This document shows, piece by piece, positions 16,669 to 18,265 of a stretch of 21,190 bases of DNA (position 1 is the stretch's first letter; the number at the start of each line of letters is the position of its first letter). The notes beneath the pieces are model-generated. The model was not told the origin of the DNA. It saw only the letters and a list, made by a program, of their open reading frames with translations, and made no database searches. The position numbers and the translations under genes are program-made. The DNA comes from a virus, in IMG/VR virus record IMGVR_UViG_3300001683_000100, positions 1-21,190 of that record; one strand, 5' to 3'.

Positions 16669-17070
16669 TTATGATTCTACTATCTTTGAGGACCCGGATT
16701 CTACCTTATTATTAATCTCATCGGTGTATTTCTGTAAATCTTCTGCAACTGGTTTTAAAGATTTTAATAAATCTTCTTTTTCCGAATCAGATAGTCCGAA
16801 TTCAGACTCACTGGATCCCTTTTGTTCACCTGATATTAATCGCTGAACTATTCCAGCCATTTTTACTAATTGATCATCATTTTTTACTTTAATGTCCAAA
16901 TATTCTTTTATTGCTGGAATAAGCTGTACTGCAGTGTCACCATCTTTTATGAATGTTACCACCTCTCGTATCAGCACGTCCAGCTGTTTTTTATTGTCTG
17001 AAGAATTATTGTATATATCTTCAAACAAATCTGATAGCGATTTTTCTTTAAATATTTTGTAATCTGACAT
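16669..17070 (-). CDS. Conserved small acidic protein heading the baseplate operon
   Basis: This 133-residue helical protein begins YKIFKEKSLSDLFEDIYNNS and includes IPAIKEYLDIKVKNDDQLVKM, a pattern I recognise from short uncharacterised proteins near spike genes in T4-like marine phages. No membrane segment, signal peptide or catalytic motif is present. The C-terminus is Ser/Glu-rich. It is the first gene of the tail operon: the upstream 152-base gap holds the divergent late promoters, and its stop is separated from the spike ATG by one base. No clear Shine-Dalgarno sequence precedes the ATG (TTTAATAATATCATG), unusual compared with most genes here. It may be an assembly factor for the hub. 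Confidence 0.65.
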   Translation of the reverse strand: MSDYKIFKEKSLSDLFEDIYNNSSDNKKQLDVLIREVVTFIKDGDTAVQLIPAIKEYLDIKVKNDDQLVKMAGIVQRLISGEQKGSSESEFGLSDSEKEDLLKSLKPVAEDLQKYTDEINNKVESGSSKIVES

Positions 17071-17084
17071 GATATTATTAAACC

Positions 17085-17092
17085 TATTTATT
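17085..17092 (-). promoter_or_regulatory. Putative late promoter of the tail/baseplate operon
   Basis: The minus strand reads AATAAATA, an exact match to the NATAAATA late-promoter form, 15 bases before the ATG of the first tail gene. A second candidate, TATAAATG (7 of 8 to the T4 octamer), lies just upstream around 17102-17095. The leader would be very short. A gp55-type sigma factor is encoded 500 bases away, which makes late promoters of this type expected. Confidence 0.5.
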
Positions 17093-17096
17093 CATT

Positions 17097-17144
17097 TATA
17101 AATATAACTAATTAAAAAACCTTGTGTATATAAATATATAAATA
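17097..17144 (+). promoter_or_regulatory. Triple late-promoter array driving the forward gene
   Basis: Three exact TATAAATA octamers lie on the plus strand at 17097-17104, 17129-17136 and 17137-17144; the last two are directly adjacent, forming TATAAATATATAAATA. They precede the only plus-strand gene, whose ATG is at 17223, leaving a leader of roughly 70 bases. In T4, gp55 recognises this octamer without a -35 element. The tandem arrangement suggests strong or redundant late initiation. Confidence 0.6.
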
Positions 17145-17180
17145 TTTCGGAAATATGCCAAGTTAAATAGTTATTTTAGT

Positions 17181-17215
17181 AGGGCATTTAGTCCCTTTTT
17201 CATAATAAACGGGAG
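17181..17215 (+). promoter_or_regulatory. 5' leader with alternative pairing over the ribosome binding site
   Basis: AGGG (17181-17184) can pair with CCCT (17193-17196), followed by a T-run. The same C-tract (TCCC, 17192-17195) can instead pair with GGGA of the ribosome binding site GGGAG (17211-17215), seven bases before the ATG. The two pairings are mutually exclusive. Each helix is only four base pairs, so this is weak evidence for a switch. Confidence 0.25.
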
Positions 17216-17222
17216 AATAACC

Positions 17223-17444
17223 ATGAAGGAAGTCGTAACAACAGTTAAAGGATACATAGATGATTTAGCTCATCTGATGTTGTCCTTTATTACCATAGGT
17301 GCTATTTCCGAAGTAATCTTCGGAACAGGCATTTTTGGTGTCAATGTTATAGGTAACCTGACGGCTATTATCGGTCAATTCGGCGAAGGCGGATTTACTG
17401 GTCTGGTAGCATTGTTGGTTTTGGTAGGTTTATTTCGTAAATAG
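17223..17444 (+). CDS. Small hydrophobic membrane protein, strongly expressed late cassette
   Basis: This 73-residue protein was not recognised. After a short charged start (MKEVVTTVKGYIDD) it has hydrophobic, glycine-spaced stretches at about 15-33, 35-51 and 59-71, then a basic end FRK. It probably has two or three membrane-associated segments with no signal peptidase site. It is the only plus-strand gene in the window. It is preceded by three exact late-promoter octamers and a strong GGGAG ribosome binding site, and is closed by a 12-bp terminator. By my count 87 of 222 bases are G or C (39%) against roughly 30% nearby, with many GGT, CTG, TTC and CGT codons, as expected for an abundant product. 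Holin, virion membrane-interacting protein or a scaffold-like small protein are all possible; the sequence does not decide. The start is unambiguous. Confidence 0.75.
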   Translation: MKEVVTTVKGYIDDLAHLMLSFITIGAISEVIFGTGIFGVNVIGNLTAIIGQFGEGGFTGLVALLVLVGLFRK

Positions 17445-17464
17445 AAATACTACCGAATAATAAA

Positions 17465-17504
17465 AAAAGGGAGTGATTTAATTGTCACTCCCTTTTCTTT
17501 TTTT
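17465..17504. terminator. Strong bidirectional rho-independent terminator
   Basis: AAAAGGGAGTGA (17465-17476) pairs perfectly with TCACTCCCTTTT (17485-17496) around an eight-base loop, then CTTTTTTT. On the minus strand the A-rich flank at 17462-17468 supplies the T-run. It lies 20 bases after the forward gene and 23 bases after the stop of the sigma gene in minus direction, so it ends both converging transcripts. Confidence 0.92.
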
Positions 17505-17527: not shown

Positions 17528-18265
17528 TTATCCGAAAATTGATCCTGTATTAGATGTATTTATACTATACCCATCCTGGTATTCAGATACTAACTCATGA
17601 TATTGTGATTTCATTTGATTAACAACTCTGGTTATATGCTGAGTATTAGATCCTGTCATTTCTCTAATGAGAATGTAAAGAGCCTTCTTATTAAAATTTT
17701 CTAACGTGTGACGTCTCTTAAATAATTCTAATACTGAATATGCTACATTCAAATCTTTTTTTCGTTTGAAAAAATTATTCAAATTATTGTCCCAGAATTC
17801 AACCATTTGCCCAACCAGATCATCATAATATTCAGCAACTTCTCTGGCTCTCTTCTCACCTTCTACACTTCTCTCAAAATCAAGAACATCAATATCAGTA
17901 TGAGATTTCATTTTTTTATAATTATTATTATTATGAAGTATTAACCAATTTTTCCCAACTATTGAAAAATATGAAAAGGCTCTGCCTTTATCAGGATCAA
18001 ACTTATTGATATTCATTAGCATAAATGCCACTACTTCATTTTTAACATCTGTTAATGGAACGTCAAAATAATAAAACTTAAAAGTATGAATCAAGTTTTC
18101 TGCCAATTTATCAAATGGAGCCGCGATATTTTCAGCATATATTTTATTTTTAAGTACATGATCGTCACTGGCATTATATCTAATTATAGCATCTTGGGCA
18201 GGTTTTCCAAAATACATTTTACTTTTCTTTTTTCGTTTCTTTTTTATATTTGGTTTAGTTGTCAT
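17528..18265 (-). CDS. 55: Late-transcription sigma factor, T4 gp55-like
   Basis: This 245-residue protein is longer than T4 gp55 (about 185). After a Lys/Arg-rich N-terminus (KKKRKKKSK, residues 8-16), residues about 45-125 look like sigma region 2: VKNEVVAFMLMNINKFDPDK, then GRAFSYFSIVGKNWLI with the conserved Phe-Ser-Tyr-Phe core-binding/DNA-melting pattern. The C-terminal half is helical (LELFKRRHTLENFNKKALYI) and could bind the upstream edge of the promoter or the sliding clamp. gp55 directs host RNA polymerase to TATAAATA promoters late in infection, and several such octamers are present in this window. The ATG lies inside the end of the 90-residue gene (11-base overlap). The terminator just downstream closes the unit. 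Confidence 0.82.
   Translation of the reverse strand: MTTKPNIKKKRKKKSKMYFGKPAQDAIIRYNASDDHVLKNKIYAENIAAPFDKLAENLIHTFKFYYFDVPLTDVKNEVVAFMLMNINKFDPDKGRAFSYFSIVGKNWLILHNNNNYKKMKSHTDIDVLDFERSVEGEKRAREVAEYYDDLVGQMVEFWDNNLNNFFKRKKDLNVAYSVLELFKRRHTLENFNKKALYILIREMTGSNTQHITRVVNQMKSQYHELVSEYQDGYSINTSNTGSIFG

Follow-up and report, generated by a model that had tools for sequence, protein, structure and literature searches.

A strongly conserved gene for a small predicted membrane protein of uncultured marine T4-type phages and the putative promoter elements beside it

The window analysed here is a stretch of 21,190 nucleotides of viral DNA (IMG/VR record IMGVR_UViG_3300001683_000100) that contains a single convincing rightward gene, an open reading frame of 73 codons that we named Q. 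Comparison with relatives showed that Q is a conserved gene with a structured leader, a terminator, alternative genomic sites and strong purifying selection. Taken as a whole, the best explanation, to which we give about an even chance, is that Q and its signals form a self-contained, moron-like unit in an uncultured marine T4-type lineage. The product of Q is most likely an oligomeric inner-membrane protein that would act on the host envelope late in infection, in a lysis-related role or in exclusion.

The locus and the Q family

The features of the locus are as follows, in the coordinates of the window.

16669-17070, minus strand: gene E, the first gene of a leftward baseplate operon, to which genes of the cultured phages immuto and Mel-JY01 are related
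17071-17222: divergent intergenic region from E to Q, a layout kept in 78 distinct relatives
17093-17108, minus strand: probable promoter of the leftward late operon, holding the octamer at 17097-17104, read as TATTTATA (14.1 bits)
17125-17140, minus strand: second probable leftward promoter, holding the octamer at 17129-17136 (11.6 bits), its edge overlapped by the tandem octamer at 17137-17144
17164-17179, plus strand: probable own promoter of Q, TAAATAGTTATTTTAG, with a predicted start near 17179
17181-17196, plus strand: leader stem-loop AGGG-CATTTAGT-CCCT, then a U tract
17210-17215, plus strand: Shine-Dalgarno sequence CGGGAG, 7 nt before the ATG and conserved in relatives
17223-17444, plus strand: Q, predicted to encode a two-helix membrane protein of 73 residues
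17462-17506, plus strand: intrinsic terminator with a 15-bp stem and a T tract, convergent with the gp55-like gene
17528-18265, minus strand: gp55-like gene, weakly assigned as a late sigma factor

The last assignment comes from a weak match to the sigma factor family phrog_1740 (E=0.061) and from a collinear but weak alignment to T4 gp55 (hhalign P=0.024).

The first-pass annotation had described one rightward gene amid leftward ones, forming a self-contained cassette with a strong ribosome binding site, raised G+C and a strong terminator, and most of this description held up. All other long open reading frames of the window are on the minus strand, the CGGGAG element supplies the ribosome binding site, and the G+C content is 39% against 32% for the window. 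The terminator is present, although its stem measures 15 bp rather than the 12 bp given before, with an 8-bp GGGAGTGA/TCACTCCC core at 17462-17499. A terminator-like hairpin follows the stop codon in at least 93 of 127 relatives, compared with 15 of 298 random segments. The high G+C of Q needs no argument from expression, because in two related genomes the gene for the T4-type capsid protein gp23 equals Q in G+C (0.41 and 0.38). Codon adaptation of Q to gp23 is ordinary, and codon usage does not support the idea of very high Q expression. Between stop codon and terminator, one clade (L014-L026, L031-L034, L041, L045-L067 and others) also conserves a second stem, CGAAATAG...CCTAC...GGACAC, which is apparently a 3'-UTR structure.

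Relatives of Q were found in at least 454 IMG/VR contigs, a number that counts contigs and not viruses since the collection is redundant. The 80 that were kept are 62-93% identical to Q over essentially its full length, and the close relatives that were read are 73-74 residues long. Q is therefore a conserved gene and not a chance open reading frame, nor is it a misplaced fragment of a longer protein. By way of the loci of the neighbouring gp55-like gene we also reached two further subfamilies, 29-40% identical and 73-79 residues long. Subfamily 2 (141 contigs) is about 30% identical to Q, matches it in length and nearly always occupies its site; the members of subfamily 3 (18 contigs) have 75-79 residues. 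Mean column identity among 51 sequences of the Q subfamily is 88%, and G26, F33, G39, N45, G57 and G60 are invariant in 36 diverse members.

The suggestion that this is a small membrane protein of an unfamiliar family was supported by the searches. No family of Pfam, PHROGs or NCBIfam matched the window Q and nothing convincing appeared for the 51 subfamily members, holin families included; profile searches of the PDB gave nothing credible, and Foldseek found no match in the PDB or in viral libraries. Among cultured phages, tblastn over 50,697 phage records gave no match, and a profile search found no Q in T4, P-SSM2, P-SSM4, Syn9, S-PM2, HTVC008M, immuto or Mel-JY01. Bacterial genomes yielded two matches only, both on contigs of metagenome-assembled genomes and probably viral, Rfam gave only sub-threshold matches, and we found no paper containing the peptide GVNVIGNLT. 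A candidate assignment to phrog_23618 was rejected, as the match is weak (best E 0.007 among the 51 members) and the family also matches unrelated control genomes. As judged from these searches the family appears to be previously undescribed and, being missing from the curated libraries and from all cultured phages tested, Q is likely to be overlooked by annotation pipelines.

Over 55 distinct loci, the median pN of Q is 0.072 with a pS of 0.54, compared with 0.223 and 0.71 for E, 0.257 and 0.71 for the gp55-like gene, and 0.298 and 0.60 for gp6. With comparable pS, these values show much stronger purifying selection on Q than on its neighbours. Recent horizontal transfer was ruled out as the cause of the high identity by the strongly diverged synonymous sites, and by this measure purifying selection accounts for most of it; low pS in a few pairs with distant backbones nevertheless suggests occasional exchange. 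Phages that have Q thus appear to depend on it, and amino-acid change about four times slower than in the baseplate protein gp6 would fit a demanding, conserved interaction at the host membrane.

Octamer orientation and the transcription signals of Q

Three exact TATAAATA octamers had been described upstream of Q and read as a triple late promoter driving its very high expression. The octamers are there, on the plus strand at 17097, 17129 and 17137 with the last two in tandem, and the window as a whole holds 16 copies over both strands against 7.1 expected (none of 100 shuffles reached 16). Measured to the start of E, which runs leftward, they stand at 26, 58 and 66 nt, and TATAAATA is the late promoter of T4 and KVP40, while S-PM2 uses NATAAATA (PMC2984593). 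In the lineage of the window, however, the octamer points the opposite way. In same-strand intergenic gaps of this lineage TATTTATA was found in the coding orientation 23 times and TATAAATA 3 times (p 9e-5), and ATATTTAT 30 times against 2 for its reverse. Coding-strand TATTTATA was noted in the window, G001, G003, G005, G008-G010, G012, immuto and Mel-JY01. The TATTTATA to TATAAATA counts were 18:6 in immuto and 10:2 in Mel-JY01, whereas the same test gave 0:11 in T4 and 0:3 in S-PM2 (heptamer 0:13), in agreement with the published orientation in T4 and cyanophages (PMC2984593). Like the T4 late promoter, the element is an AT octamer that precedes late-type genes, here in phages whose structural genes are of T4 type, but it is the reverse complement, (A)TATTTATA, that has the coding orientation.

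Scores agree with this orientation. With a motif matrix built from the other genes (ATATTTATnA...R), the two octamer sites facing E stand well above anything on the plus strand, where no site exceeds 6.8 bits. When the top-scoring site in each direction was taken from the 78 distinct E-Q gaps, the median was 13.2 bits toward E, at 31 nt from that gene, and 9.0 bits toward Q, at 59 nt. Shuffled gaps reach 5.3 bits (95th percentile 10.3), and the score toward E is the higher in 72 of the 78. From the mirrored orientation and these scores, the most likely assignment of the three octamers is to the leftward operon, and the element is probably a late promoter in the strict sense. Two of these octamers overlap a single AT element that is nearly palindromic and may therefore be used in both directions.

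That the octamers instead work as three T4-type promoters for Q now seems very improbable. They are exact copies, and many relatives keep the 32-bp spacing of the first two; yet in four relatives the corresponding place is taken by TATTTATA, several alternative-site copies of Q keep the leader hairpin with no octamer at all, and the codon usage of Q is unremarkable. We found no paper that combines TATTTATA with promoter and phage. A mirrored late promoter, if confirmed, would change how promoters are called in many marine phages of a large group, and it could be tested in the cultured phage immuto.

The own promoter of Q is probably the element at 17164-17179, as judged by the motif and by its conservation. 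The match in the window is weak (6.8 bits) and is better in relatives, where it reaches 14.7. A TAKTTAT element lies directly before the leader hairpin in both subfamilies found at the gp55-E site and in several alternative-site copies. An outer RNA helix pairing TAGTTA with TAACTA around the hairpin was also considered and rejected; subfamily 2 keeps the TAGTTATTA element without TAACTA, and TAGTTATTA is therefore read as promoter DNA.

Transcription from this element would place the 5' end of the mRNA almost at the leader hairpin. The position of the hairpin is conserved over 89 leaders with many different stem sequences, such that MAFFT and RNAalifold gave no usable alignment. Q leaders fold at a median of -11.1 kcal/mol, whereas the leaders of the lineage's other genes reach -4.9 (p 2e-25, from related sequences that are not independent). 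The leader of the window itself folds weakly (-5.3 kcal/mol in the same test; z -1.3, not significant). The mRNA of T7 gene 10 starts with a stem-loop, followed by a U-rich stretch and a strong Shine-Dalgarno sequence. The Q leader has the same three parts, with the stem-loop at the predicted mRNA start, but bears no sequence relation to it. The expected role of such a 5'-terminal stem-loop would be to protect the mRNA or to aid ribosome loading. It is improbable that the hairpin is instead an intrinsic terminator acting as an attenuator: a run of at least five T follows the stem in 43 of the 89 leaders, as a terminator would have it, but about half of the leaders lack the run and keep the stem, and a terminator role is therefore not general.

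Genomic sites of the cassette

In most relatives Q stands antisense at the junction of E with the gp55-like gene, and the synteny of the latter with the baseplate operon, which had been named as a point to check, is kept. In four gp55 loci (L244, L247, L264 and L297) Q is on the same strand as gp55. The junction can also be without Q. In two genomes gp55 and E follow one another uninterrupted, with 43 and about 120 bp between them, and Q lies about 30 and 12 kb away. Among cultured phages the closest in backbone are Flavobacterium phage immuto and Microcystis phage Mel-JY01, in which gp55 and E are likewise adjacent. The uninterrupted junction without Q is also seen in G005, G010 and 27 of 80 gp55 loci. 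A further 15 of these 80 have a wider gap and no direct Q match, several of them carrying subfamily 2, so that a third or more of the loci have no Q at the junction. Two genomes with Q at an alternative site are T4-type phages too, since both encode a T4-type gp23 and one of them also the T4 portal. In a tree of Q DNA the alternative-site copies fall into two weakly supported groups.

Q resembles a moron in being a single gene with its own terminator, in an orientation independent of its neighbours, and in being present in some relatives and missing from others whose flanking operon is uninterrupted. A promoter of its own is predicted, weak in the window and better in relatives. Q differs in that it is found in T4-type phages, at a mostly fixed site, and is more conserved than the backbone rather than sporadic.

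Predicted structure and possible roles of Q

Hydropathy and AlphaFold2 both predict two transmembrane helices, as expected from the earlier description of a small hydrophobic membrane protein. The AlphaFold2 model, from 36 diverse members, has helices at residues 2-33, 42-55 and 58-72 with moderate confidence (pLDDT 80, pTM 0.44). The protein is amphipathic over residues 2-18 and 42-56 and hydrophobic over 15-34 and 55-72, and its C-terminus is positive. We infer that it folds as a hairpin of helices within the inner membrane. In each half an amphipathic helix would lead into a transmembrane helix (15-34 and 55-72), both ends would be inside, the conserved turn would be glycine-rich, and oligomers could form through faces of glycine and other small residues.

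Some contexts point to the envelope. Members of subfamily 3 follow the gene for a secreted protein whose C-terminus is beta-barrel-like (ending ASYSF or ASYKF), and in four loci (L319-L322) the Q relative is in front of a protein of 55-57 residues, of which the two tested match phrog_34682 'holin' at 3e-4 and 9e-4. Genes for TonB_C or mini-MscS-like proteins adjoin some other Q copies. These are minority contexts, none of them beside Q copies of the window type, and they fit lysis, exclusion and other membrane roles alike. For the role of Q we hold lysis or its control to be possible, and superinfection exclusion or another host membrane target equally so, neither reaching an even chance; a virion or assembly role and any other role are each improbable.

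The more specific proposal that Q is a class II holin, pinholin or antiholin, which would assemble in the inner membrane and set the timing of lysis, is doubtful. Its size, the two predicted transmembrane helices, the charged C-terminus and the separate transcription unit with its predicted promoter all resemble such proteins, and in L319-L322 the relative stands between an outer-membrane-like secreted protein and a match to a holin family. In those loci, however, the small neighbour is the better holin candidate. Q is moreover near-invariant, which is atypical of holins, has no sequence match to them in Pfam, PHROGs or NCBIfam, and has no endolysin or spanin recognised next to it at the window site.

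To the same doubtful degree, Q may act in superinfection exclusion or on a host target, with the conserved turn binding one conserved host membrane complex. Moron-like mobility combined with very strong conservation across very different backbones favours this, as do the alternative-site copies beside TonB_C proteins, but late expression, if real, would be late for exclusion and no target is known. A virion or assembly protein, for example a membrane-associated morphogenesis factor, is less probable: Q usually borders the baseplate operon and is conserved in the manner of a structural gene, but it is movable, antisense and by prediction separately transcribed, and cultured relatives that share this baseplate operon lack it. 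A wider reading is somewhat unlikely. In it, this near-invariant hairpin family, with three subfamilies and at least some 600 contigs, would serve an abundant uncultured marine T4-type lineage as a core late effector that acts on a conserved membrane target of the host, and this lineage would use a mirrored T4 late promoter.

Several other genes were observed near Q. Proteins with a TonB C-terminal domain and apparent signal peptides are encoded close to alternative-site copies (L039:3420-3752, L078, L101 and L119:6646-7017; PF03544 in L039 and L119). A mini-MscS-like protein of 113-115 residues, with a weak match to the MscS beta-domain, adjoins Q at both kinds of site (L119:8506-8853, L003, L004, L005, L253 and L266) and is a possible partner. 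Type IV pilin-like proteins with an N_methyl motif are found beside the alternative site (L088:7613-8738, L086, L089 and L119:9954-11094). The gap between Q and gp55 is an insertion hotspot, with clusters of two to four tRNA genes (Thr, Glu, Ala, Gly; Tyr/Leu/Lys in L074) and small basic open reading frames in L017, L041, L052, L067, L073, L074, L079, L096, L113 and others. In the same gap, L024:6297-7682 encodes a 460-residue protein that matches the NTPase and finger domains of DNA polymerase III alpha (PF07733, PF17657), with similar open reading frames in L047 and L020, and L141:8456-9620 carries a PIG-L deacetylase adjoining a glucosamine-6-phosphate isomerase-like gene.
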